Assembly (NCBI GenBank): GCA_016931365.1
Contig: JAFGEY010000415.1
Span: 1 to 21,211 of the forward strand
From: Anaerolineae bacterium
Lineage (GTDB): Bacteria; Chloroflexota; Anaerolineae; JAFGEY01
DNA length: 21,211 nt
Direction of reading: 5' to 3'
Made by a program: the position numbers and the translations under genes. Below, piece after piece: positions 87 to 20,671 of this stretch (position 1 is its first letter; each line of letters starts with the position of its first letter). Under the pieces are notes generated by a model. It saw nothing but the letters and a program-made list of their open reading frames with translations, was not told the origin of the DNA and did no database searches.

Positions 87-695
87 TTAATCTCCCTTTA
101 CAATTACTTGCGCAGAGGCCTGGGGTTTATCATAATAAATCTTGATCTCTGCCGAGTCGTGCAAGAAATCCAGGCGGCCAACCTCCACCCGTCTGATCGA
201 CAGGCCGGTGCGTTGGCGCAAGTCGGCCAGCAAATCATCTCGATGGTCCGGGGTGATGAGATCGACCTTTTCGTAGGTGATCTTGGTGCTGGCCTCAAAG
301 TGAAAGCCCCACTCCTTTTCCAGCACATAAAGTAGCGCCACAACGGTTCCGTTGGACACGAACAATTTCATCAACTCGCCGTTCAGCATCAAGATTGAAT
401 TCATCACCGACAAGGCGATAATGATGAACAGGTAGGTCATCTCGCGGGTAGGCATCTCTTCGGTGCGGTAGCGGAGCACGGAAAAGATGGCAAACAGACC
501 AAAGCCGACCCCCACACTTAGAGTGGTGCTGGTGAACAATCCCAGCACAAAGTAAGTAATGGTACTGAAAGCCAGAAAGGTAAATACGTAATTCTTGTTT
601 TTGGTAACAGGATAATAGATAAGCCTGACAATGAGCAGGGCGATAAGCAGATTAAAACCGGCGCCCAGGACAAAACTAGTGAGTTCACTGAACAT
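87..695 (-). CDS. DUF4956 family membrane protein
   Basis: The product is about 202 aa. Its N-terminal two thirds is hydrophobic, with roughly four membrane segments, and it carries the family signature FAIFSVLRYRTEEMPTREM followed by a membrane helix and a soluble C-terminal tail (about residues 130-202). DUF4956 proteins often sit beside VTC-domain proteins, as here, and I infer a membrane partner of a polyphosphate polymerase. The exact function is unknown. The reading frame can start at GTG 704 or ATG 701, but ATG 695 is preferred because GAGGTG (702-708) lies six bases upstream of it. The start overlaps the end of the upstream VTC gene by 11 bp, so translation is probably coupled. The family call is firm; the role is not. 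Confidence 0.85.
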   Translation of the reverse strand: MFSELTSFVLGAGFNLLIALLIVRLIYYPVTKNKNYVFTFLAFSTITYFVLGLFTSTTLSVGVGFGLFAIFSVLRYRTEEMPTREMTYLFIIIALSVMNSILMLNGELMKLFVSNGTVVALLYVLEKEWGFHFEASTKITYEKVDLITPDHRDDLLADLRQRTGLSIRRVEVGRLDFLHDSAEIKIYYDKPQASAQVIVKGD

Positions 696-1542
696 AGTCA
701 TCACCTCGCATTAATGTGTCGATCAATCGGAGTGTGGGCTTAAAGTTGTTGTGTTTTACTTGCGGATAGAGCATCGAAACGCCGATGCAGTATTTGCTGA
801 AATTGGTCGCACGCACGCCCCAGGTGCGCATCTGTCGGGCAAACTCCGAGTTCGTTGAACGGCCATCTTGTTTGACTTCAGCGACCGCGACCCCGGTCAG
901 GGACGTATGCACATCATTCCACAAAAAACACAGGCCCACGTCTACGGTCAGGCGTTCCACACGGTGCGTGCTGACCAACGTGATGCGCTGAAACGTGTTG
1001 AGCAGCCTGGCTCCCAATTCTTCCAACTGGTATGGATAACAGGTGCGCAAGAAGGGTTTGGCGTCTTGTGCGATCTGCAAGTTCAGTGCCTGGGTTTGCA
1101 TGCGGCTTTTAACGGTTGTGTTACCAGCGACTTTGTGCTTTATTTCCAGGAAGGCCAGCTCAGAGTCTGCGTACGCGCGTTCGCGCACTTTGTAACGATT
1201 GCGCCAGCCGTTGTGATGCTGCCGATAGAGCGTCAAGTCGGGTGTGTCAAAGTAGAGCGTCCGATAGCGATGCAGCCGCCGTCCATCGATCTCTAAAATC
1301 CGATAGTGGTCGGTCAGGCGAGCCAGTGCCTGAGAGAGCTGCTCCTCGCTCAAGACATATTTTGTGTCGGTGCGGCTAAACAGCGCAACGTGATCCATTT
1401 CGGATAGACTGATGGCGTCAAAGCTTTGTAGCAGAGTAGCTTGCCAGGATGAATCTCGTTGCGCCGTCATCGTGGGCGCAGAGGTGGTTACTGGAGATAG
1501 AGCAGTCTCTGGTTGGGCAACAGCACGTGGGTATATGTTCAT
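685..1542 (-). CDS. VTC-domain protein, probable polyphosphate polymerase
   Basis: A 285-aa soluble protein with the VTC domain from about residue 48 to the C-terminus. Visible family motifs are SRTDTKYVLS (about 56-65), LYFDTPDLTLYRQHHNGWR, YKVRERAY and FLEIKHK. These supply the basic and acidic residues that line the phosphate tunnel in yeast Vtc4. In eukaryotes this domain makes polyphosphate from ATP. Bacterial members next to DUF4956 are presumed to do the same or to bind polyphosphate; the substrate here is inferred. Residues 1-40 are low-complexity and unlike the family, so the true start could be Met25 or Met49. The SD before ATG 1542 is poor (AAGAAAG). It is the first gene of a two-gene minus-strand operon with the DUF4956 gene. 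Confidence 0.85.
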   Translation of the reverse strand: MNIYPRAVAQPETALSPVTTSAPTMTAQRDSSWQATLLQSFDAISLSEMDHVALFSRTDTKYVLSEEQLSQALARLTDHYRILEIDGRRLHRYRTLYFDTPDLTLYRQHHNGWRNRYKVRERAYADSELAFLEIKHKVAGNTTVKSRMQTQALNLQIAQDAKPFLRTCYPYQLEELGARLLNTFQRITLVSTHRVERLTVDVGLCFLWNDVHTSLTGVAVAEVKQDGRSTNSEFARQMRTWGVRATNFSKYCIGVSMLYPQVKHNNFKPTLRLIDTLMRGDDYVQ

Positions 1543-9453: not shown

Positions 9454-9482
9454 TTGACAAGGATCATGTTGTATGGTATTCT
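9454..9482 (+). promoter_or_regulatory. Promoter of the nine-gene transporter/diterpene operon
   Basis: A perfect TTGACA (9454-9459), 17 bp, and TATTCT (9477-9482), preceded by TGG so that it also fits an extended -10. Transcription would start near 9489. This is downstream of ATG 9473, which argues that the MFS protein starts further in. It diverges from the coiled-coil/GH13 promoter. Confidence 0.6.
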
Positions 9483-10921
9483 CTATTTGTGCATTGATAT
9501 GGCACAGTGCAAGTGTGGTGCGAGGACGCGCAGGAAGGAGAGGCTCTCTGTTTCGGCGCGTCCGCTGGTTTGGGAGCAAAAAGCATTTGGTGGAAACGGC
9601 GAATCCAGCACGGCGGCAGGCACCGATCCGGATCGATATCTTTTATTCATTGATCACTCTGGGCAGTACGGCGATCTGGTCGGTTATGAGCGGATGGCTG
9701 CTGTACTTTTATCTGCCACCCGCAGGGGAAGGACAGGTGTTGGTCCCGGCGGCGCTTTATGGCGTGACGACATTGGCCGTTCGTGCCTTGAACGCCCTGT
9801 TCGCGATCTGGGTCGGTCACCGGTCGGATCGGATTCGCAGCCGGTGGGGGCGTCGCTTGCCATTGATATTTGTCTCTGCGCTGCCGATGCTGCTTTTCTT
9901 TGTGCTTTTGTGGATACCTCCGGTGCGCGGCGAGTCGGGGTGGAACCTCGCTTACCTGGCCTTGATCCTGATTCTGTATAATGGCGCGTATAGCCTGAAC
10001 CAGATTCCATTTACTGCGTTGTTGCCCGATCTGGCCCTGACCGACAGCCATCGCGTGCGTATGTCGGCCTGGTCGGCGAGTGCGTTTTTGCTTGGCTTTA
10101 TTCTCGGCGGGCTGGCCGGGCCGTTGATCGACCGGGGCGGGTACTTGGTGATGGCCCTGATCTACGTCGGGATCGCGTTGCCCCTGTTTTATTTGCCTTT
10201 TCTCGTGCTGCGCGAGCGCCCGCGGCCGCCAGCGGCGGAAATGGCTGCGGATCGTCCTGACCTGTGGCGCGCGCTGGGATCGATGCGGCACAATCGCCCG
10301 TTTGTGATTATGACCGCCGCCGGGGTCTGCTATTGGGGGATCACAACCCTCGTCCAGGCGACACTACCCTACATTGTTACCGAAATCTGCCGGCTCGACA
10401 CCGGCGACGCCTTTTATTTTTACATCCCGGCGGTGCTGGCCTCGCTGGTCTGTTATCCATTGATCACCTGGCTGTCGAACCGGGTGGGCAAATGGGCCGT
10501 CTTTGCCGGATCGATGCTCGCCTCGGCTATTGTGCTACCGGGTTTGCTGCTGATCGGTGAACGGCTGCCGTTAGGGTTGGGCGCGCAGGGCATCTTGTGG
10601 ATGACACTGCAAGCGGTCGCGCTCTCTGGTGTGGCAATGTTGCCCCCGGCGTTTGGGGCTGAAATCGTCGATTACGACGAACAGCTTACCGGGCAGCGCC
10701 GCGAGGGGCTGTATTATTCGGTCTGGGGGCTGCTCGACCAGGTGGTCAACGGCCTAGTCGCTGCTCTGTTGCCGGTGATCCTTTTGCTGGGGCGCAGTCG
10801 TGGCGATCCCAACGGGCCATTGGGTGTGCGGATGGTCGGCATGTTTGGTGGCGCGTTGATGCTGGTTGGATTCCTGGTTTTTTTGAATTATCCGTTGCGT
10901 CAAAAGGGGGAGGTCGAATGA
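9473..10921 (+). CDS. MFS transporter, GPH (MelB-like) type; start uncertain
   Basis: An integral membrane protein with about twelve helices. The loop GHRSDRIRSRWGRRLPLI (about residue 115) is the MFS/GPH signature between helices 2 and 3. GPH proteins usually couple sugar or glycoside transport to Na+ or H+; the substrate here is unknown. Coordinates run from the only early ATG, which has AAGGA nine bases upstream. However, the first 40-odd codons are arginine-rich with rare AGG/AGA codons, and a strong promoter overlaps ATG 9473. Better starts are TTG 9587 or GTG 9590, or CTG 9548, which has AAGGAG exactly seven bases before it. The transporter core begins at APIRIDIFYSL. It is first in a tightly packed operon, and its stop overlaps the GNAT start by 4 bp. 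Confidence 0.85.
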   Translation: MVFSICALIWHSASVVRGRAGRRGSLFRRVRWFGSKKHLVETANPARRQAPIRIDIFYSLITLGSTAIWSVMSGWLLYFYLPPAGEGQVLVPAALYGVTTLAVRALNALFAIWVGHRSDRIRSRWGRRLPLIFVSALPMLLFFVLLWIPPVRGESGWNLAYLALILILYNGAYSLNQIPFTALLPDLALTDSHRVRMSAWSASAFLLGFILGGLAGPLIDRGGYLVMALIYVGIALPLFYLPFLVLRERPRPPAAEMAADRPDLWRALGSMRHNRPFVIMTAAGVCYWGITTLVQATLPYIVTEICRLDTGDAFYFYIPAVLASLVCYPLITWLSNRVGKWAVFAGSMLASAIVLPGLLLIGERLPLGLGAQGILWMTLQAVALSGVAMLPPAFGAEIVDYDEQLTGQRREGLYYSVWGLLDQVVNGLVAALLPVILLLGRSRGDPNGPLGVRMVGMFGGALMLVGFLVFLNYPLRQKGEVE

Positions 10922-11718
10922 GCACCTATGAGATCGAACGGATCGCCGAACTGGAATGGGCCAACTATGCGGCCACGGCCGCAATCGCCCAGATAACGCC
11001 GGGCCTGGAGTTGATCTTGCGTCCCGACGCAATCTTGAGCAGCAGTGAGATATTTCCCACGCCGGATGTCAACCACGCCTGTTTGCTGCGCGCCGATTCG
11101 CAGGGCATAGATGCGCTGATCGACGAGATGGTGGGGTATTATCAGGCCAAAGACCTGCTGCCGACGATTTTTGTCTCTCCGGCCTGCACGCCCGCCGATC
11201 TGGCCGAACGCCTGCTGGCGCGCGGATTTGCCCGCCAGGAAGGTGCCGAGGCGTGGATGGTGGTGGATGATATCTGGGCGGCTCAGATACCCAAGCCGTC
11301 GCCCCGGATTGAGGTCCGTGAGATCGAGCCGGAGGAGGCACTGACTGTGGCCCAGGTCTTTATGACCGCCTTTGACATGTCGCTCGATTTTGCGCCGGCG
11401 ATGGCCCAGTTGCTCGCGCCGTCGGTAGGACTGCCGGGCGCGCATCACTACCTGGCTTTTCTGAACGACGAGCCGGTGGGCACATGCTCGCTGATCTGTC
11501 ATCAGACCTTTGGTGTGCTGGGCAGCGCGGGGGTGATCCCTTCACGGCGTGGCGGCAGTGCAGCTACCAATCTGGCCGTGCGCGCCGTGTTCGACGCGCG
11601 GCAAGAAGGCGTGCGGACATTGATGCTGCAAACGGCGGCCGGCACGCTGCTGGAGCGATTTCTACGTATTTACGGGTTCAAAACAGCATTCACACGCACA
11701 GGCTATACGCTTCAATGA
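10918..11718 (+). CDS. GNAT-family N-acetyltransferase
   Basis: A 266-aa soluble protein whose C-terminal half (about 130-266) is a GNAT fold: it transfers an acyl group from acyl-CoA to an amine, or less often a hydroxyl. The acetyl-CoA loop reads SRRGGSAATNLA (Arg210-Gly213), preceded by the beta strand FGVLGSAGVIP and followed by TLMLQTAAG and the family-typical LERFLRIYGFK. The N-terminal half (1-125) resembles a degenerate second GNAT-like domain without the CoA loop. Start ATG 10918 overlaps the MFS stop as ATGA and has GGGGGAGG a few bases before it. Its operon place next to export and terpene genes allows a role in tailoring a product or in resistance, but the substrate cannot be read from sequence. 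Confidence 0.85.
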   Translation: MSTYEIERIAELEWANYAATAAIAQITPGLELILRPDAILSSSEIFPTPDVNHACLLRADSQGIDALIDEMVGYYQAKDLLPTIFVSPACTPADLAERLLARGFARQEGAEAWMVVDDIWAAQIPKPSPRIEVREIEPEEALTVAQVFMTAFDMSLDFAPAMAQLLAPSVGLPGAHHYLAFLNDEPVGTCSLICHQTFGVLGSAGVIPSRRGGSAATNLAVRAVFDARQEGVRTLMLQTAAGTLLERFLRIYGFKTAFTRTGYTLQ

Positions 11719-12443
11719 GCGCACTGATCGAAACGGCCGATCTACAAAAGACATATCAGACAAGCGATGTAACTTTTCATGCCCTACGCGGCGTTTCTTT
11801 GCAGGTGGAGGCCGGCGATTTTGTGGCCGTGATGGGGCCGTCGGGCAGCGGCAAATCGACGCTGCTGCATCTGGTCGGCGGACTGGATCGCCCTTCGGCA
11901 GGATCGGTAAGCGTAGGGGGGCGTTATCTCGAAAAGATGAACGAAACCGAGTTGGCCCGCTTTCGCCGCGCCGACATCGGCTTTGTGTTCCAATTCTTCA
12001 ATTTAGTCGACAACCTGACCGTGCGCGCCAACATTGAACTGCCCGCCCTGTTGACCCGGCGCCGGGACAAAAAAGCCATTCGACGGCGCTCAGAGGCATT
12101 GTTGGAGCGGCTGGGCATCGCCAGCCAGGCTGACAAGCATCCCTGGGAACTGTCGGGCGGGCAGCAGCAGCGGGTGGCGATTGCCCGTGCATTGATCAAC
12201 AACCCCACGCTGCTGCTCGGTGATGAGCCGACCGGCAACCTCGACAGCGCCAGCGGGCAGGATGTGCTGACAATTTTGCATGAATTTAACGAACAAGGGC
12301 AGACAATTTTGATGGTCACACACGATGCGGTTGCGGCGTCAAAGGCCAGGCATGTGATCTTTATCCGCGATGGGCTGTTGGTCGACACGCTGCCCGGCGG
12401 CGACGCGCAACGCATCGCCCGGCGTGTGACCGAGTTGCAGTAG
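11715..12443 (+). CDS. ABC transporter ATP-binding protein, LolD/MacB type
   Basis: A 242-aa nucleotide-binding subunit. Walker A is GPSGSGKST (Lys47), the Q-loop is [11 protein letters not shown], the signature is [15 protein letters not shown] (from 146), Walker B is LLLGDEP (Asp170, Glu171), the D-loop is GNLDSA and the H-loop is His203. The [15 protein letters not shown] and GNLDS pattern is typical of LolD/MacB/FtsE-type ATPases that pair with FtsX-like permeases, and such a permease gene follows four bases after the stop. It energises extrusion or extraction of a substrate from the membrane. The frame is open further upstream, but ATG 11715 overlaps the GNAT stop as ATGA and gives the standard family start. 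Confidence 0.95.
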
Positions 12444-12447
12444 GCCG

Positions 12448-14775
12448 ATGGATGCAATCTGGCAGAAAATCAAGGCTGATATCAGCAGCCGTGCGCTGAT
12501 CTCGACGCTGATCGTGATCACTGTGGCGGCGGCCTCTCTGCTGCTCACGCTGGCGCTCGCCACATTGATGAACATCGGTGCGCCCTATGATCGGGCCTTT
12601 GACGAGCTGAACGCGGCGCACCTCTGGCTGTATTTCGACCGCGACAAGGTCCGCGCGCGCGACATCGAGCGCATTGAGGAATTGCCAGGCGTGGTCGGTA
12701 GTACGGGGGTGCAGTACAGCGTGACCAGCCGGGTGCAGATCGGCGACACACGGGTGTGGACTAGTTTGCGCCTGACCCCGCCTGAGCCGCCTGCTGTCAA
12801 CCGGTTGCTGGTCCAGGAGGGACGCGATTGGCGACCCGACGACCTGGAAGTGCTGGCCGCCAAAGACCTCAAAGATCTGTATGGTTTGCAGGTTAGTCAG
12901 GTGATCACTTTGACGCAGTGGGATGGCAAAAAGATCGGTTTGCCGGTGATTGGCCTGGCCTATAACCCGATGTGGGACACCTATCGTAGCTCACAGCCGC
13001 CCTACCTGTACATTTCAGAACAAACGTTGCGCAAGCTCTATCCCGACGAGTCTGCCTGGGACTGGTCACTTGGTTTGCGCATAGCTGATCCTGAAACCGT
13101 CGATGAGATCGTGGCTCAGGTCAAGGATTTGCTCCGTAACGATGTTCTGGTTGCGCACACCAACTGGCGTGACGTCAGGGAATCGGCCATCTTTGGCGCA
13201 CAGATCAATTTTGTGTTTTTAGGGTCGTTTGGCCTGTTTGCCGTTGTAGCGACAGTTCTGGTCATTGCCAGCAGCGTCAGCTCATCGGTGCTATCACAGT
13301 TCCGGCAGATCGGGTTGCTTAAAGCATTGGGCTTTACTCAAGGCCAGATTTTGCTCCTTTACACGGGCCAATACCTGATTCTGGGGATCGTTGGCTGCCC
13401 GTTGGGGTTGATCTTGGGTCTTGTCCTATCGCCATTGCCGCTCAAGAGTGTTGCCGCCTCACTCAGCACCACTTTTCGTCCCTCGCTCGATCCGGTGCTG
13501 ATTGTGGTGGTTTGGGGTGTTGTATTGGGCAGTATCTTGCTGGCGACGTGGGGATCGGCTTACCGGGGCGCACGAGCGAATACGGTCAAGGCGATCTCGG
13601 TAGGGGCCGAGGCGCCGCGCCGACGGTCTTTTTGGATCACGGCTCTTGCTGCCCGGCTTGGTGCGTCGGTGGTGATGGTGCTTGGCCTGAATGACATTTT
13701 TGCCAAACCCTTCCGCTCCGTGATGACCGGGCTGAATCTGACTTTAGGGGTGATCGGCGTAGTGTTTGGGTTGACGCTGAACGAAACACTGGAAAACTAT
13801 CGACAAAATCCCGCTCTACTGGGCATTGTCTACGATGCCGTTGTCACCCGGCAAGAGATGAGCGACAGCCGCGCGCAGGGCTTGCTGCGCCGTTCCACCG
13901 ACGTGATCGCCTATTATGGCGAGCTGTTGATCGAGGCTGAAACGTCGAGTGGGCAGGCGTTTCAGGTGCGCGCAGTAGACGGTGACTTGGGCGCGTTTCC
14001 CTTTCAGATCACCGGAGGGCGTCTTTTGCAGCCGAACACTGCCGAGGCGATTGCCGGGCAGGGCCTGCTCGATTGGCTGGGGTTGCAGGTGGGCGATGAA
14101 TTGACCTTGATCCTGGACAAGAACGAAAAACGTCCACTGACTTGGCAGATCGTTGGCAAATACCCGGAACCGGTCAACGCCGGGCAGATGATGATCGTCA
14201 ATTTGGCGTCGGTGACGCGCGCAGTCAAGAGCGCCGAACCGTCGCGTTATTACGTCAAGTTGGCTCCCAACGCCAACGTTGCCCGGCTTGGGACGTTTTT
14301 GTCTCCGCATCCGGACTCGGATCTGAATCTGACTTTAGTGGAGCAGGCCATTCCAAGCGTGGTGATCTATTTGCAGTTGGCGATCCTGGCCCTGGCTGTC
14401 GTGCTGATTGGCATTGCCCTGGTCAATGTGTTTAATACTTCGTTGCTGGCAATGCAGGAAAAGGTTCGCATCATCGGCGTACTCAAGACGGTGGGGATGA
14501 CACCGGCTCAGGTGATGTCGATGAGCAATACCACCACCGCCGTGCTGGCACTGATTGCCACGCTGACGGGCATTCCATTTGGCTGGCTCTTTACCAAAGG
14601 AATGCTCGAGGTCTTGTCCCAAGTGTACGGTTTTGGCCGGGTGAGTGTGCGCTTGAATCCACTTTATGCACTGCTGCTGGTACCGGTACTGGTGATGGTG
14701 AGCTTGGTTGGCAGCCTGTTTCCAGCACGGCGGGCGGCGCGACTGTCGATTGTCGAGGTGCTGAGGCATGAGTGA
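12448..14775 (+). CDS. Duplicated FtsX-like ABC permease
   Basis: A 775-aa permease with two FtsX modules. One membrane helix (about 16-40) leads into an extracytoplasmic region (about 45-245), then FtsX module 1 (about 250-385, containing [15 protein letters not shown]), a middle helix (about 424-445), a second extracytoplasmic region (about 450-635) and FtsX module 2 (about 637-765, containing [16 protein letters not shown]). The duplicated layout is common in Gram-positive and chloroflexote lipid/peptide exporters, in contrast to the single-module MacB. Together with the preceding ATPase it should form a complete mechanotransmission-type ABC exporter. Starts four bases after the ATPase stop; ends with an 8-bp overlap into the GT87-like gene. 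The substrate is unknown; a hydrophobic terpenoid or its conjugate is an inference from context. Confidence 0.93.
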
Positions 14776-16171
14776 ATCTGTGCGGCGCTGTTGGGCGCAG
14801 TCCAAGGTCTATCGCGTGCTACTGATCGTGGCACTGGTGTACACCGTGCTGCGGTTGGCCATTCACGGCGTTTATCTGGGGATGATGCTTGCCCCGTCGG
14901 CGGACGGCGAGAGCGACTTGCCCGAATGGACCGAGGCTGAAGGGCCGATGATCCCCGCGGATTTGCAGATCTATCTCAACGCGGCCAGACATTTTCAGCA
15001 GCGAGAGGGCTTGTATCTGCAAGGGCCGTTGACGCGGTTGGAAGATCATTACCCTTATGCGCCGATCTTTGCCCTGTTTTTTGTGCCCTTTTTATCGCTT
15101 TCGCCTGTCGTAGTGACGGTAGTGCACACGTTGCTACACATCGCTGCGTATGTGATGCTTTTTATCTGGTGGGGGCGCATCTTTCGACGGATGGGGTTGG
15201 ATCGTGCGGCGCTGGCCCTGGCCTGGACGCTGCCACTGTGGCCGGTGTTCGCGGCTTTCTGGGGTGATTTGGGCTACCTGAACATCTATCTGCCCATGGC
15301 TTTGTTGGGAACCTGGTTCATCGAGGCGGTGCTGTCGGAGCGGCTGGGATGGGCACTGCTCTGGTTGTCGATCATTGTGCAGATCAAGCCGCACTGGGCC
15401 TTTGCGCTGGCTGTGCCACTTTTTTTGGGGCGCTTTCGTTTCTTTTTCAAGCTGGCCGGATTGGCTGTCCTGGTGTATGTGATTGTATTTGGCCTGCTTG
15501 TGACGATCACCGGGCCAGAGTACATTTTGACGCAGTATGGCGAGTACGTCCAGTTTTTGGGCCGCTTGAGCCGCGATTTCCCCTGGCGTGAATCCAGTGC
15601 GCCCTTTCTTGGTTATAACCATTCGGTGCGGCAGGTCATTTATTATGTGCTGGGGCGCTCACCGCTGACTCGTATCCTGGCTACTGCGTTCAAAGTGCTT
15701 CTGTTGCTGCCTCTCGCGTTCGCCGGTCTGCATCATCTGCTGCGTCCGGTAAGGCAGCCCGGTTTCGAGGTGCCACGTCTGGGCCTGGACTGGGCTTTTG
15801 CCCTTTACTTGGGCGCGTTCATCTGGTTAGATATGGTCTGGGAAGTTTCGTTGGGTCTGGTTGTTTTCGTTTACTTGCTTGCGGTGGTTGAGAGGCGAGG
15901 TGTGCGCGCGTTGCTGTGGGGCGTCTTTATGCCTTATGTGTTTGTCGATCTGATCCAGGCCGCCAGTTTTGCTGTCTGGGGAATGAGTGTAGTTGCGCCA
16001 GGGCCGTATGTGTTGACCGATCCAAGCATTTATGTCCCGGTGATTTTGATTGCCATTTTGACTTTTTATGCTGTTCTGGTTGGTCGATTGTGGCGGGGCG
16101 CGCGTGAGCCGGTTGTGGAAGTGGGGAGGGATGATGGAACTGGAAACGTTCCGGCGTTTGCCAACGGCTGA
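14768..16171 (+). CDS. GT87-like (DUF2029) polytopic membrane glycosyltransferase
   Basis: A 467-aa protein with about ten or more membrane helices. After helix 1, a long loop carries PADLQIYLNAARHF (Asp65), then LEDHYPYAPIFALFFVPF, the layout of GT-C enzymes in which an early loop Asp is the catalytic base. IIVQIKPHWAFALAVPLFLGR matches the Lys-Pro region of GT87. Known GT87 members such as mycobacterial PimE use polyprenyl-phosphate mannose and act on the outer membrane face. The sugar and acceptor here are unknown. It overlaps the permease by 8 bp and the following Rv3378c-like gene by 38 bp, so it is tied to the diterpene genes. I infer, but cannot show, that it glycosylates the diterpenoid or a lipid exported with it. 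Confidence 0.78.
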   Translation: MSESVRRCWAQSKVYRVLLIVALVYTVLRLAIHGVYLGMMLAPSADGESDLPEWTEAEGPMIPADLQIYLNAARHFQQREGLYLQGPLTRLEDHYPYAPIFALFFVPFLSLSPVVVTVVHTLLHIAAYVMLFIWWGRIFRRMGLDRAALALAWTLPLWPVFAAFWGDLGYLNIYLPMALLGTWFIEAVLSERLGWALLWLSIIVQIKPHWAFALAVPLFLGRFRFFFKLAGLAVLVYVIVFGLLVTITGPEYILTQYGEYVQFLGRLSRDFPWRESSAPFLGYNHSVRQVIYYVLGRSPLTRILATAFKVLLLLPLAFAGLHHLLRPVRQPGFEVPRLGLDWAFALYLGAFIWLDMVWEVSLGLVVFVYLLAVVERRGVRALLWGVFMPYVFVDLIQAASFAVWGMSVVAPGPYVLTDPSIYVPVILIAILTFYAVLVGRLWRGAREPVVEVGRDDGTGNVPAFANG

Positions 16172-17075
16172 AATTGCCGGGCTGGCCCGACAGGCCGGGC
16201 CGCAGGTGTGTGTCTTTCCGATCAACGGCACGCGCCGCTGGTTTATTCTGGAGCATCCGCAGGAGGCGGCGGAGGGCCTGACCGAGGCATACTTGGACAT
16301 CACCTGGGAACGGCAGCGCGAATTGTACGCCCTCTTTTTCGATCACGGCGTCGATACCCTGCTCACGCCGATCTTTGGGCCAGACCTGCTGGCGCGCGAC
16401 GAGGCCTATTTGCGACTCCTTGAGCCAGGACTGCTGTGGTTTACGCGCGCGCCCAGCCTGCGCGATTTTTATCGCGCCTACGACGTGCGTGTGCGCGTCT
16501 ATGGCGATGCCCGGCGCTATCTGGCGCAAACGACGTTGGCCTATGTGCTTGACGATTTTGCGCGCATCGAGCAGGAAACGGCCGAGCATCGTAGCCACCG
16601 CCTGTTTTTTGGCGTTTGTGCGCACGATGCCGCCGAGACAGTCGCCGAGATCGGCGTGCAATTTCACCAGGCACACGGTCGGCTGCCGGCCAAGCGCGAG
16701 ATCGTCGAGGCGTATTATGGCGAATATGTCGATCCGGTGAGCTTTTTCATCGGCTTTGATCGATTGACGGTCTTTGACATGCCGCTCATCGCTACCGGTG
16801 ACGAGGATTTATATTTTACAGTCAGTCCATCGCCCTATGTCGATCAGATCACGTTGCGCGCGATACTGTACGATCATCTCTATGCGCGGCAGGTGGCGGA
16901 AACCGATTATGCGGATTGGTTGGCAGAAGACTGGCAAGCTTTGTCCGAGTTCTACCACGTAAATCGACATCACGTGTTGGGTGTGGGGCGCAAGCATCCC
17001 GGTGCAGGATTTTGGTACCCGCTGCCGCAGGTCAATTTACCATTATCAATGACACATCAAGAGGGGAACGAATGA
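16134..17075 (+). CDS. Rv3378c-like diterpenyl diphosphate-processing enzyme (tuberculosinol/kolavelool synthase family)
   Basis: A 313-aa protein clearly related to M. tuberculosis Rv3378c (about 296 aa), which has a cis-prenyltransferase-like fold and turns tuberculosinyl diphosphate into tuberculosinol or 1-tuberculosinyladenosine. Motifs shared with the Rv3378c sequence as I recall it are VFPINGTRRWF (Rv3378c VFPFDGTRRWF), LTPIFGPDLL, FGVCAHDAAETVA, EAYYGEYVD, FFIGFDR, LYFTVSPS and RAILYDHLYAR. The two catalytic-site arginines are kept (Arg34, Arg35), but the Asp (Asp34 in Rv3378c) is Asn31 (codon AAC, 16224-16226). That could change or weaken the reaction. ATG 16131 is also in frame; 16134 is chosen because GGAGG (16125-16129) is then four bases away. 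It overlaps the GT87-like gene and shares ATGA with the cyclase, in the same order as Rv3378c-Rv3377c. The family call is strong, the product unknown. Confidence 0.9.
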   Translation: MELETFRRLPTAEIAGLARQAGPQVCVFPINGTRRWFILEHPQEAAEGLTEAYLDITWERQRELYALFFDHGVDTLLTPIFGPDLLARDEAYLRLLEPGLLWFTRAPSLRDFYRAYDVRVRVYGDARRYLAQTTLAYVLDDFARIEQETAEHRSHRLFFGVCAHDAAETVAEIGVQFHQAHGRLPAKREIVEAYYGEYVDPVSFFIGFDRLTVFDMPLIATGDEDLYFTVSPSPYVDQITLRAILYDHLYARQVAETDYADWLAEDWQALSEFYHVNRHHVLGVGRKHPGAGFWYPLPQVNLPLSMTHQEGNE

Positions 17076-18568
17076 ATTATACGCAGGAAGCGATTGAATT
17101 GGTCCAAAACCTGGATCAACGCATGGGGCCAAGTCCGTACGACATTGCCTGGCTGGCGCGGCTGTATCCGTTGGGTAAGAGCAGTGCCAACTGGCCCGAT
17201 CTGGTCGAGTGGCTGCTGGGACACCAGGCTCCGGATGGCAGTTGGGGCGGGGAGATTGTCTATTATCACGACCGCATTATCTGCACGCTGGCAGCCGTGA
17301 TCGCTTTGTACGAAAATCGATTTGGGTGGAAAGTGTCTGAGCCAATCCAGCGGGCGCAGAGTTACCTGTGGCATCATCTGCATCTCTTGCCGCGCGATCC
17401 GTTCGAATTGGTCGGTTTTGAGCTGTTGCTGCCCACGCTGCTGCAAGAGGCGCGTGCACTGGGCCTAGATGTGCCCACACACACGTGCGGTTATGGCGAG
17501 ATACAGACGGCTAAACTGCGGCTGATCCCGCCGGAAATGCTCTACTCGCCCAAAATCTCGACCGTCCACTCGCTCGAATTTCTGGGACGCGACGGCGATG
17601 CCGAACAACTGAAGGGGGCGCGGGCCAGCAATGGTTCTTTGGGCAACTCGCCCGCTGCGACGGCGTATTATTTGACGCGCTCCGACGCCGATGATGGACA
17701 GGCGAATGCTTATCTGGCCGATGTCCTCGCGCACGAATGGCAGGTGATCTATTTGTATCCGTTTAGCACGTTCGAGCTGACCTGGGTGCTGAACAACCTA
17801 GCTTTTTCCGGCCTGCCGATCACTGCCTTTGCCGGCGAGGACATCTGGCGGCGACTGTGCGCCGAGTTGGGGCCGACGGGCATTGGCCTCGACGCGACCT
17901 TTGGCATCACCGATGGCGACATTACGTCTGTCACCACCCGTCTGCTGATCGAAGCCGGCTATGAGGTCGATCCGTCCATCCTGGCCCGCTTTGAGAACAA
18001 GGAAACCCACGTTTTTCAGACTTATAAATTCGAGCGCAACATCAGTGTAGGCACCAATTTACACGCCCTCGAATCATTGGTGCTGCTGCCCGATTATCCA
18101 GCCTGCGAGCGGGTCAAAAAGAGCGTGCTGGTCACACTGCTCGAAAATCGTAAATACAATATGTATTGGATCGATAAATGGCACACCTCACCCTATTATG
18201 CCACCTCGCACGTGTTGATCGGTATGCTGCGCGAGGGCGATTACCTGATCCATGCCTGCCACAACACCGTGGAATGGTTGTTGCACAACCAGCGTGAGGA
18301 TGGTTCATGGGGCTTTTTCGATCGAGGCACGGCAGAAGAGACGGCTTATGCGCTCACAGCTTTGTTGCATTATCATTGGTACGATCCGGTGCCCAAAGAA
18401 GTTTTGCGTCGTGGCGCTTTATATTTGGCTCAAGAATATCGGAAAAACGGATCGGCGTACCCCGAACTCTGGATCGGCAAGTGCCTGTATATCCCTTATG
18501 CGGTGGTGCGTTCGGCGATCTTGGCCGCGTTGATTCTCTACGAGTCCGTGATCGGGCAGACGCTATGA
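17072..18568 (+). CDS. Class II diterpene cyclase, Rv3377c-like
   Basis: A 498-aa beta-gamma terpene cyclase, nearly the length of Rv3377c (501 aa). It should protonate geranylgeranyl diphosphate and form a bicyclic (labdane, halimane or clerodane) diphosphate. The general-acid motif is DGDITS (Asp281, Asp283), with Asp283 the catalytic middle Asp; Ile284 replaces the fourth residue of DxDD (Thr in Rv3377c as I recall it). QW-like motifs are DGSWG (55-59) and DGSWGFF (from 410). Other shared blocks are SPYDIAWLARL, DRIICTLAAVIAL, KWHTSPYYATSH and AEETAYALTAL. No class I DDxxD domain is present, so the diphosphate goes to the preceding enzyme. ATG 17072 is chosen: GAGGGG lies five bases upstream and it shares ATGA with the previous stop. 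The precise skeleton (tuberculosinyl, kolavenyl or other) cannot be told by eye. Confidence 0.92.
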   Translation: MNYTQEAIELVQNLDQRMGPSPYDIAWLARLYPLGKSSANWPDLVEWLLGHQAPDGSWGGEIVYYHDRIICTLAAVIALYENRFGWKVSEPIQRAQSYLWHHLHLLPRDPFELVGFELLLPTLLQEARALGLDVPTHTCGYGEIQTAKLRLIPPEMLYSPKISTVHSLEFLGRDGDAEQLKGARASNGSLGNSPAATAYYLTRSDADDGQANAYLADVLAHEWQVIYLYPFSTFELTWVLNNLAFSGLPITAFAGEDIWRRLCAELGPTGIGLDATFGITDGDITSVTTRLLIEAGYEVDPSILARFENKETHVFQTYKFERNISVGTNLHALESLVLLPDYPACERVKKSVLVTLLENRKYNMYWIDKWHTSPYYATSHVLIGMLREGDYLIHACHNTVEWLLHNQREDGSWGFFDRGTAEETAYALTALLHYHWYDPVPKEVLRRGALYLAQEYRKNGSAYPELWIGKCLYIPYAVVRSAILAALILYESVIGQTL

Positions 18569-18617
18569 ATTGCAACTGGTTTTCGACCGTTTGTTGGGGG
18601 AAACAGAGGTAGTGAAA

Positions 18618-20303
18618 ATGAAACTGGCGACTCGACTGCTTCAGGTGTCTACCGCAGACCCCGATGATGCCCGTCGTCGCAAATTGCTCAACATTATGCT
18701 GTTTGGTATCATGGCTATCGTTGTGGTAGGTAGCCTGGCCACGGCCATTGCAGATGTTGCGCACCTGATCGCTCACGATGAGGTGGTGAGTCTGGTTTAT
18801 GTGGCAAGTATCGCCGCGCTGACAGGTAGTGCGATCATCTGGATCATCAACCGCTACGCTTCGGGACAAGTGGCCAGCGTGCTCTTTTTATTGTTGCTCA
18901 CGGTGATCATTGCATTTTCGGATGAAGCGCGTCAGGTTGTTGAAGGACGCAGTGTATTCTTGTTTACCATTCCTATTCTGATGGCCAGCGTGACCCTGCG
19001 CCCCTGGGCCAGTTTTGTCGTCGCAGGGTTGAGCAGTGTGCTGGTTTCAGTCATCGCCGTGAGCATCCGGCCCGACTATGTACCACCGATACCGACGATG
19101 CTGGGTTTCTTTGCCGTCGCGCTGGTTTCCTGGCTGGCCGCGCGCAGCCTGGAAGTTGCTCTGGCCGACCTGCGCGCGATCAACGCCGAACTAGATCGGC
19201 GCGTCCTTGACCGCACGCGCGAATTGGCTACCACCTTGAGTGAAAACCAGGCGATTTTGGAGAGCATCGCCGATGGGGTGATTATGTTCAGCCCCGACGG
19301 CCGCGCGGTGGTTGCCAATCCGGCCATTTCGCTCTTGTTGACCAAGCCGCCCGAGCAGATTGTCGGTCGAGATATGGAAACCTTGATGGAACATGAGGTG
19401 GATGTCCAAGATCGTCAGCTAATGACTCGTCTGCTGCAAGGCGACACGGCTCTGGCTCCGACATTCAAGTTGGAGTGGGGTCGCAAGACGCTTTCGGTGA
19501 GTTGTGCGCCGGTGCACAGCGAAACTGGGTCAGCCGTCGGCACCGTCGCTGTTTTTCGAGATTTCACCCGTGAGGCCGAGTTGGATCGGATGAAAAGCGC
19601 CTTTGTATCGACCGTTTCGCACGAATTGCGCACGCCGTTGAATGCCATCCTCGGCTATGCAGACATGCTCCACGAAGCCGTTTTTGGCGCGCTTTCGGAG
19701 CGTCAGAGTGAGGTGATGCAACGACTGGTCGCCAACGCTAATCGGTTGCTTAGTTTGGTCAACGATCTATTGGACAGCGCTCAGATTGAGGCTGGGACGT
19801 TGTCGCTCAACTTCAGCCAGGTGCAGCCCGCCGATCTGATGCGTGATATGCACTCGACGATGGTTGTGCTCTCCAATGCTAAAAAATTGGATCTGATCTG
19901 TCGCATCGATCCGGATATGCCAGAGGTTGTTTTTGGTGATGCTCAACGCCTGCACCAGATTTTGCTCAACCTAGTCAACAATGCCGTCAAGTTTACCGAG
20001 CAGGGGGCGGTAACGGTCAACATATTTTCGTCTGGCGACACACACTGGAGCATTGAAGTGATTGATACGGGGCCTGGCATTCCCCCTGAAGCTATGGCGC
20101 ACATGTTTGAACCATTTCACAGCGTCGATAGCTCGGCGACGCGCAGACATCGTGGGGCCGGGCTTGGATTGTCGATTGTCAAACAACTTGCCGAATTGAT
20201 GGGCGGAACGGTGAGCGTCTCCAGTGAGTTGGACCAGGGCAGCACATTCACCGTTCAACTGCCCGTTAAGCCACCTGATTTTTCAAAGGAGTCATTGTCA
20301 TGA
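18618..20303 (+). CDS. Membrane-bound PAS sensor histidine kinase
   Basis: A 561-aa kinase. About six membrane helices fill residues 24-171 with no large periplasmic domain, which suggests sensing within or near the membrane. A coiled coil (about 172-205) leads to a PAS domain (about 205-320, ILESIADGVIMFSPDGRAVVAN). The HisKA box SHELRTPLNAIL has His335, followed by N-box NLVNNAVKFTE, G1 DTGPGI and G2 GAGLGLSI, so it should be active. The frame is open from 18570, but ATG 18618 with GAGGT eight bases upstream is preferred. The 49 bp after the cyclase stop hold no terminator or convincing promoter, so it is read as part of the same operon. It shares ATGA with the response regulator, its likely partner. 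The ligand is unknown. Confidence 0.92.
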   Translation: MKLATRLLQVSTADPDDARRRKLLNIMLFGIMAIVVVGSLATAIADVAHLIAHDEVVSLVYVASIAALTGSAIIWIINRYASGQVASVLFLLLLTVIIAFSDEARQVVEGRSVFLFTIPILMASVTLRPWASFVVAGLSSVLVSVIAVSIRPDYVPPIPTMLGFFAVALVSWLAARSLEVALADLRAINAELDRRVLDRTRELATTLSENQAILESIADGVIMFSPDGRAVVANPAISLLLTKPPEQIVGRDMETLMEHEVDVQDRQLMTRLLQGDTALAPTFKLEWGRKTLSVSCAPVHSETGSAVGTVAVFRDFTREAELDRMKSAFVSTVSHELRTPLNAILGYADMLHEAVFGALSERQSEVMQRLVANANRLLSLVNDLLDSAQIEAGTLSLNFSQVQPADLMRDMHSTMVVLSNAKKLDLICRIDPDMPEVVFGDAQRLHQILLNLVNNAVKFTEQGAVTVNIFSSGDTHWSIEVIDTGPGIPPEAMAHMFEPFHSVDSSATRRHRGAGLGLSIVKQLAELMGGTVSVSSELDQGSTFTVQLPVKPPDFSKESLS

Positions 20304-20671
20304 GCCGAGGCCTCGCGTTGATTATCGAAGATGATGTTGACCTGTCGTTCATTTTTGCAGAATCGCTCAGGGCCGCCGGGTTTGAATCCGAGATCGTTCG
20401 CGACGGTGCTGTTGCCGAAAAACGCCTGGCGGCGACCGAGCCAGAGGTTGTGGTTTTAGACCTTCACTTGCCCAACGTATCCGGCGAGCAGCTTTTGACC
20501 CAGATTCGCCGCGATGGACGCCTGGTCAAAACGCGGGTCATTCTCTGCACCGCCGATCCGCGCATGGCCGAACCACTGCAAGAGATCGCCGACTTGGTGC
20601 TGATCAAGCCGATCATTTTCAGCCAATTGCGCGATCTTGCGTCGCGCCTGGCAGGCACACGAAACGATTGA
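20300..20671 (+). CDS. Single-domain response regulator (CheY-like receiver)
   Basis: A 123-aa protein that is only a receiver domain. The acidic pocket is Glu10-Asp11-Asp12 (IIEDDVD), the phosphoacceptor is Asp54 (VVLDLHLP), the switch Thr is Thr84 (CTAD) and the conserved Lys is Lys103 (LIKP). It should accept phosphate from His335 of the kinase it overlaps by 4 bp. There is no DNA-binding or enzymatic output domain, so it must act through protein contact or a phosphorelay, and cannot by itself regulate the operon. It is last in the operon and is followed at once by a strong terminator. Confidence 0.95.
   Translation: MSRGLALIIEDDVDLSFIFAESLRAAGFESEIVRDGAVAEKRLAATEPEVVVLDLHLPNVSGEQLLTQIRRDGRLVKTRVILCTADPRMAEPLQEIADLVLIKPIIFSQLRDLASRLAGTRND

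Follow-up and report, generated by a model that had tools for sequence, protein, structure and literature searches.

An operon in the 21,211-nucleotide window (the whole stretch of Anaerolineae DNA that we analysed) has, in our estimate, an even chance of both making a cyclic diterpenoid and carrying the membrane receptor that matches it. Because its two synthase genes, here called genes A and B, sit beside a membrane sensor kinase and a partner protein, and do so in many related Chloroflexota as well, this linkage suggests that the cell senses the diterpene as a signal. The enzyme class of A and B is well supported by their sequences and a rearranged bicyclic diterpenol is the best reading of the product, while sensing of that product by the linked kinase is what we infer from linkage, sensor fold and analogy.

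Gene content of the probable operon

The genes of the probable operon, all on the forward strand, are:

9473..10921, +, sugar-type MFS transporter, with which the probable operon opens (Pfam MFS_2, E 1e-48)
10918..11718, +, GNAT-type acyltransferase, a weak match (Pfam Acetyltransf_1, E 1.9e-5)
11484..12443, +, ABC transporter ATPase of MacB/LolD type (Pfam ABC_tran, E 2e-33; best NCBIfam match MacB/LolD); the ORF starts 5' of the likely start, with homology only from about residue 78
12448..14775, +, FtsX/MacB-type permease (Pfam FtsX, E 1.2e-28; MacB_PCD)
14768..16171, +, GT87-like membrane glycosyltransferase (Pfam GT87, E 3e-4, 21 bits, below the cut-off of 25)
16134..17075, +, gene A, zeta-fold (cis-prenyltransferase-like) diterpene synthase of the Rv3378c/Haur_2146 family (NGTRRW motif, Asn31)
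17072..18568, +, gene B, class II diterpene cyclase of the Rv3377c family (DGDIT acid motif with Asp283; His166, Gly469, Tyr473; E 1.7e-58)
18618..20303, +, sensor histidine kinase (Pfam PAS, HisKA, HATPase; membrane helices)
20300..20671, +, stand-alone response-regulator receiver domain (Pfam Response_reg only, E 3.3e-14)

Genes A and B are adjacent and share an ATGA, as the initial annotation had observed, and the kinase and receiver genes share another. That annotation closed its feature at 18568; it captured the pair itself and missed the kinase and receiver downstream, along with the transporter and glycosyltransferase-like genes upstream. Its remark that no methyltransferase lies near the pair agrees with our scan of 17 window ORFs, none of which matched a methyltransferase family. 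Across 73 related loci, homologs of the MFS transporter (anywhere in the locus) and of the FtsX/MacB-type permease were each found in 13, those of the GT87-like glycosyltransferase in 23 and those of the receiver in 42.

Genes A and B belong to the Rv3378c and Rv3377c families

A sequence search returned Rv3378c as a full-length relative of gene A (E 9e-65 over residues 6-294); at E ≤ 0.001 only Rv3378c entries matched, and no UPP synthase appeared among profile-search matches up to E 10, where the additions were chance rows only. Gene B lies in the squalene-hopene cyclase superfamily (Pfam, NCBIfam) and has Rv3377c as its best solved match (E 1.7e-58). These matches bear out the families first proposed for both proteins and rule out identity as a squalene-hopene cyclase or a plain UPP synthase, the best matches that had been named as evidence to the contrary. 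The pairing of the two families is already in print (PMC9814783), and the pair is not rare outside mycobacteria: gene A has 2555 database relatives at E ≤ 1e-3, and among the best 120 of these, those with an organism name are all Chloroflexota or Anaerolineae.

Gene A has the cis-prenyltransferase (zeta) fold, and its Tyr53 and Tyr92 match Tyr51 and Tyr90 of Rv3378c (counted by eye in the alignment). It lacks the Asp of the DGTRRW motif: Asn31 aligns with this residue (Asp34 of Rv3378c), and Asn is found there in 121/121 closest sequences (the window plus the best 120 of 2555 relatives), so that gene A cannot simply be equated with tuberculosinol synthase. The same position is Gly in the Herpetosiphon kolavelool synthase (L102), and since that enzyme is reported to be active, the Asp is not binding for the wider Rv3378c-type family. 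Together, the Asn and Gly variants suggest that some members of the family can do without this metal-site residue; in the literature on this enzyme fold we found nothing usable on the role of Asp34. One of the two patterns that retrieved the 73 related loci contains NGTRRW, which biases the frequency of Asn in those loci, and our statement on Asn therefore rests on the alignment of best relatives plus all 14 strong gene A hits (14/14) among 400 evenly drawn Chloroflexota genomes, 14 of which carry the strong gene A form.

In gene B the central Asp of the DxDD motif, the general acid, is Asp283 (kept in 121/121 sequences), and the last Asp is replaced by Ile284 (Ile in 68 and Thr in 43 of 121). 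The aligned acid motif of Rv3377c is DCDTT; as this characterised enzyme already lacks the last Asp, the residue is not binding for assignment as a class II diterpene cyclase. Read by eye, His166 stands opposite a Phe in Rv3377c, and of the 121 sequences 86 have His here, 30 have Tyr and 5 have Leu. The active-site residues lean, and only lean, against a plain labdane product.

That the pair is simply the tuberculosinol or tuberculosinyl-adenosine pathway that mycobacteria also have, with incidental neighbours, is in our judgement very unlikely. The best characterised matches are indeed Rv3378c and Rv3377c, the zeta fold of A and the B acid motif without its last Asp are common to both pairs, and the A-B order is presumably that of M. 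tuberculosis (from the gene numbers), as had been proposed, and the reverse of that in Herpetosiphon, where B precedes A. Against this reading stand Asn31 for Asp34 in all 121 closest sequences, His for Phe at position 166 of B (by eye) and a kinase linkage that is not incidental (58/61, below). The window operon also differs in holding genes for the sensor kinase, the receiver, a GT87-like protein and an ABC transporter; the operon of M. tuberculosis is reported to include genes for LytB and GGPP synthase (PMC3470408).

Membrane signal transducers accompany diterpene cyclases

The window's kinase family lay directly downstream in 58/61 testable related loci, against a background of 6/507 other genes. 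In the even draw of 400 genomes, a membrane signal transducer (kinase, GGDEF-HD or STAS protein) was near 42/44 assessable diterpene-cyclase loci, whereas 0/15 weaker, mostly squalene-hopene-cyclase-like control loci had one nearby, and the profiles recovered their positive controls in the same data. Chance adjacency in kinase-rich genomes is ruled out by both background counts (6/507, and 2/49 far genes) together with the control loci.

Gene calls in the loci were our own ORF picks, longest first, with gene A hidden in three (L002, L018, L044), and the draw overlaps with the genomes of the 73 loci (L061 and G374 have contigs of equal length and are probably one record). The 44 assessable loci come from 46 cyclase places in 47 rows, L133 and L147 being taken as the probable two ends of one gene, after L145 and L129 were set aside as cut off; L119 was scored on an opposite-strand kinase, and a receiver and a sensor fragment also lie downstream of its cyclase. 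Among the 15 control loci, 7 score above the hopene-cyclase cut-off (L162, L163, L164, L166, L170, L172, L175), 6 resemble squalene-cyclase models with scores under the cut-off (L161, L165, L168, L171, L173, L174), L169 has a squalene synthase (HpnC) as its picked frame and L167 has no match; L161 and L168 are near a contig edge.

These counts also bear on whether the diterpenoid could serve as a structural lipid that stiffens the membrane, like a small hopanoid, with the linked transducer monitoring membrane lipid content. While its being common in Anaerolineae, the intramembrane position of the sensor (in the model) and the superfamily of gene B would all suit such a lipid, we consider it unlikely: the strong A form is present in only 14/400 Chloroflexota genomes, which is patchy for a structural lipid, and hopene-cyclase-like loci of the same draw lack such a transducer (0/15).

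Sensor domains and their outputs

The membrane domain of the kinase has six helices in a structure model (residues 1-214, pLDDT 96) versus five by hydropathy scan. In the proposed class of six-TM lipid receptors (adenylyl cyclase, CqsS), a six-helix membrane domain leads into a coiled coil, and the window kinase may be built likewise. Its sequence found no match in the PDB (one row at E 0.19), and the best Foldseek hit had an E of only 1.3. By Pfam, the receiver has neither an output domain nor a DNA-binding part. One sensor family recurs on differing outputs beside diterpene synthases, and comparison of the sensors delineated a second group, to which the kinases of L119-L122 and of L125/L127 belong together with the GGDEF-HD proteins; those of L130/L131/L135 fit into neither. 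A single sensor family for all transducers is thus ruled out, as is generic membrane-segment likeness behind the sensor matches, since no comparison with GT87, MFS or FtsX segments gave a probability above 1.5%.

Gene clusters often include pathway-linked two-component systems, and the kinase and receiver may be an ordinary cluster-situated regulator that senses something else (membrane state, redox, starvation) and sets the amount or use of a diterpenoid serving as a defence compound or other secondary product. We give this possibility real weight, well short of an even chance. A constant sensor with varying tailoring genes fits a cue other than the final product, and a GGxxSPF stretch in a second sensor family at related loci recalls what we take to be the quinone-site motif of RegB. 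RegB has a quinone-binding site (PMC5506826). Arguing the other way, the receiver lacks a DNA-binding part, sister loci carry GGDEF-HD and STAS outputs with no direct action on promoters, and the same sensor family is found on different outputs beside diterpene synthases.

A proposed diterpenoid signal and its known counterparts

One close counterpart is the O-methylkolavelool cluster of Herpetosiphon aurantiacus (Haur_2145-2146-2147, here locus L102), in which a class II cyclase and a zeta-fold synthase likewise lie beside a sensor kinase and receiver, the membrane sensor being distantly related to that of the window. Its A protein is ~25% identical to that of the window and has a GGSRR motif; its gene order is kinase-receiver-B-A-methyltransferase, whereas the window has A-B, then kinase and receiver, with no methyltransferase in the ORFs scanned. 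Synthase and kinase genes are also adjacent in CqsA-CqsS and LqsA-LqsS, whose synthases are presumably unrelated to those of the window. These systems pair a small lipophilic signal with a six-TM sensor kinase (PMC4821796); the window's signal would be a cyclic diterpenoid rather than an alpha-hydroxyketone.

Judging from the enzyme families, gene B would protonate and cyclise geranylgeranyl diphosphate to a bicyclic diphosphate, probably of a rearranged (halimane or clerodane) type, which gene A would ionise, with a quench most likely by water, to yield a diterpenol. At a guess from gene position, the GT87-like, GNAT, MacB/FtsX-type ABC transporter and MFS proteins may decorate and export it. 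Within the membrane, the kinase would then sense the diterpenoid, or something derived from it, and signal to the lone receiver, as the linkage, the sensor fold and the analogy with CqsA-CqsS would have it. Our even estimate applies to these four steps jointly.

More tentatively, and well short of that estimate, Chloroflexota may use cyclic diterpenoids as membrane-soluble signals. Each synthase module, a class II cyclase and its zeta-fold or class I partner, would go with a membrane receptor from one of at least two families that show no detectable mutual similarity, on kinase and receiver, GGDEF-HD and STAS outputs; the window would be one complete unit whose single operon makes the signal, possibly decorates and exports it, and encodes its receptor and receiver. 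If so, the O-methylkolavelool of Herpetosiphon would be a signal too. To our knowledge, bacterial diterpenoids are mostly without a known role, and a fixed, phylum-wide link between synthase and transducer would make their purpose directly testable. It would also point to a class of candidate ligands for a membrane sensor domain that lacks annotation, and would inform the debate on six-TM cyclase and kinase anchors as possible lipid receptors; the tuberculosis pair would become a single branch of a family that is widespread in Chloroflexota.

Active sites and likely products of the pair

Four genes of the window are considered here:
16134-17075 (+), gene A, predicted zeta-fold diterpene synthase of the Rv3378c/Haur_2146 family
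17072-18568 (+), gene B, predicted class II diterpene cyclase of the Rv3377c family
18618-20303 (+), sensor kinase
20300-20671 (+), receiver

As judged from sequence, the enzyme assignment of A and B is well supported. Asn31 of A occupies the place of Rv3378c Asp34, and Asn is found there in the window protein and all of its 120 best relatives (121/121), as well as in the strong A matches (E<1e-70; 14/14) of an even 400-genome Chloroflexota draw; L099, an A-like protein that scored more weakly in the draw, retains Asp (DGSRR). The Rv3378c tyrosines mutated in substrate complexes (Y51F and Y90F, per structure entry titles) align, by a by-eye count, with A Tyr53 and Tyr92, each of which is present in at least 119/121 A sequences. 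The Herpetosiphon aurantiacus enzyme (locus L102) differs in carrying Gly at the Asp34 place, within a GGSRR motif. L102 has the gene order cyclase, synthase, methyltransferase, and we take it to be the published Herpetosiphon kolavelool cluster. Since this Gly variant is described as active, second-hand, in PMC8131916, PMC9440906 and PMC4902038, alcohol formation seems compatible with loss of the Asp.

In B, the acid-motif Asp283 is invariant (121/121) and Ile284 replaces the last Asp of the motif. Two comparison places were taken from PMC9814783: Gly469, matching Rv3377c Ala475, and Tyr473, matching Rv3377c Tyr479. There, one Gly-to-Asp change sufficed to shift an enzyme's product from a clerodane to a labdane, and Gly469 therefore leans toward a rearranged halimane or clerodane as the product of B. 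It is a soft guide because the place varies among cyclases: Gly in 3/8 of the window type, Asn in 7/7 of the Herpetosiphon type, Asp in 4/4 class-I-linked cyclases (L119-L122) and Gly in 6/7 of another class-I-linked group, with one gap.

Distribution of A and B

A search of 5.8 billion proteins returned 2555 A relatives at E<=1e-3, and at least 1593 B relatives were found among 7997 candidates scored. Many of the 120 A relatives and 120 B relatives listed are already labeled by one source as tuberculosinol/isotuberculosinol synthase and halimadienyl-diphosphate synthase. Scanning 84,980 species genomes with two conserved A stretches gave 73 loci, 72 of them in records labeled as Chloroflexota groups, and in 63/73 B lay downstream of A on the same strand. 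These include two zeta-fold synthase and class II cyclase fusions (L052:7959-10487 and L056:8001-10487), single open frames of 842 and 828 residues that keep both NGTRRW and DADDT. The sole non-Chloroflexota locus, in Legionella erythra (L060:8001-10572), carries an NGTRRW-type A and a class II cyclase on the opposite strand, split into two frames. Three loci (L023, L042, L061) were without B, and a contig edge cuts off the remaining six. PMC9814783, on Tpn2, had already found an Rv3378c equivalent in 44% of the clusters that encode Rv3377c homologs, so the pair by itself is not new.

Locus architecture also varied. A single A gene is followed by two tandem cyclase genes at L005:700-5185 and L070:7989-11968. 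Close A relatives (L001, L004, L006; 59-64% identity to window A) carry a different cyclase type (35-37%), whereas L055 combines a distant A (43%) with a cyclase of the window type (63%). In L061 (probably identical to L154 of genome G374), L042 and L023, A precedes a kinase and receiver with no adjoining cyclase gene. G374 gave zero cyclase matches in the draw-wide B search; A may act there on an uncyclised substrate, or the genome may be incomplete.

A sensor kinase accompanies the pair

The constant member of these loci is the sensor kinase, which begins <=1.2 kb after the pair in 58 of the 61 testable loci (those with >=900 bases following the pair). In L023 the kinase is present with one extra gene between, and L016 and L060 have no kinase of this family. 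As background, kinase homologs make up 6/507 other genes of >=200 aa in A loci, one of the six being the L023 kinase. Among the 120 best sensor-bearing database proteins, 19 (window among them) were on >3 kb contigs identical in length to one with a listed A or B, versus 0.8 expected (at most 3) from shifted lengths.

In the unbiased 400-genome Chloroflexota draw, 14 genomes had strong A, and every one of them was also among the 17 with a strong sensor domain (E<1e-24; Fisher p 3e-23). The three sensor genomes lacking A (G399, G054, G239) have a kinase and receiver-like gene, with the pair absent. B relatives (E<1e-20) occurred at 46 places, two of them cut off; profiles built here, scanned across the flanks of the 44 assessable places, revealed at 42 a transducer gene (kinase, GGDEF-HD or STAS) no more than about 2.5 kb away, on the same strand at 41. 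Within that distance no such transducer was found at L108, which ends soon after A, or at L139, where an ABC-2-type permease follows the cyclase. Weaker cyclase matches of the same search had a transducer in 0/15 cases (p 3e-12 versus 42/44); seven of the 15 pass the hopene-cyclase cut-off and the others are mostly weaker squalene-cyclase relatives. At several B loci a class I terpene synthase stands in place of A as second enzyme and the transducer is still there; Pfam Terpene_syn_C_2 was detected in 7/7 tested second enzymes (L119, L121, L124, L125, L127, L128, L130). In Herpetosiphon, the characterised cluster is immediately preceded by genes for a kinase and a receiver (L102 669-3405).

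At L119-L128 there is a second family of sensors, most of which carry a GGxxSPF-like stretch. It is found both in kinases and in GGDEF-HD proteins, next to class I plus class II diterpene synthases.

Upstream genes vary

Window genes from 9473 to 20671 all run in one direction with intergenic gaps of <=49 bases, in the order MFS, GNAT, ABC ATPase, FtsX permease, GT87-like, A, B, sensor kinase and receiver. Among the 73 A loci, homologs were found of the kinase in 59, the receiver in 42 and GT87 in 23. The upstream families differ, with FemAB/GNAT-like proteins in 36 loci, sulfotransferases in 13 and ICMT-like methyltransferases in 18 (cluster sizes, with Pfam identity from one or two representatives per cluster). 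The initial annotation saw no methyltransferase at the window, and no methyltransferase family turned up among the 17 window ORFs scanned; the ICMT-like family belongs to related loci. An FMO-like oxygenase lies upstream in L023, and L004 has a B12 radical SAM protein among its upstream genes. In one protein (P0336) an ICMT-like methyltransferase domain is fused ahead of the sensor kinase. Unrelated to these genes, window 90-1542 (-) holds a DUF4956 protein beside a VTC-domain protein.

What the sensor may perceive

Search listings of an open-access library gave no report of a link between a diterpene synthase/cyclase and a sensor histidine kinase. One listed paper that names both tuberculosinol and Chloroflexi mentions the Herpetosiphon compound. 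The main rival explanation is that the sensor belongs to an ordinary regulator responding to a different cue; the lone receiver and the outputs of the GGDEF-HD and STAS type argue against one that simply switches transcription of the cluster. We prefer the hypothesis that the sensor perceives the product of the pair.
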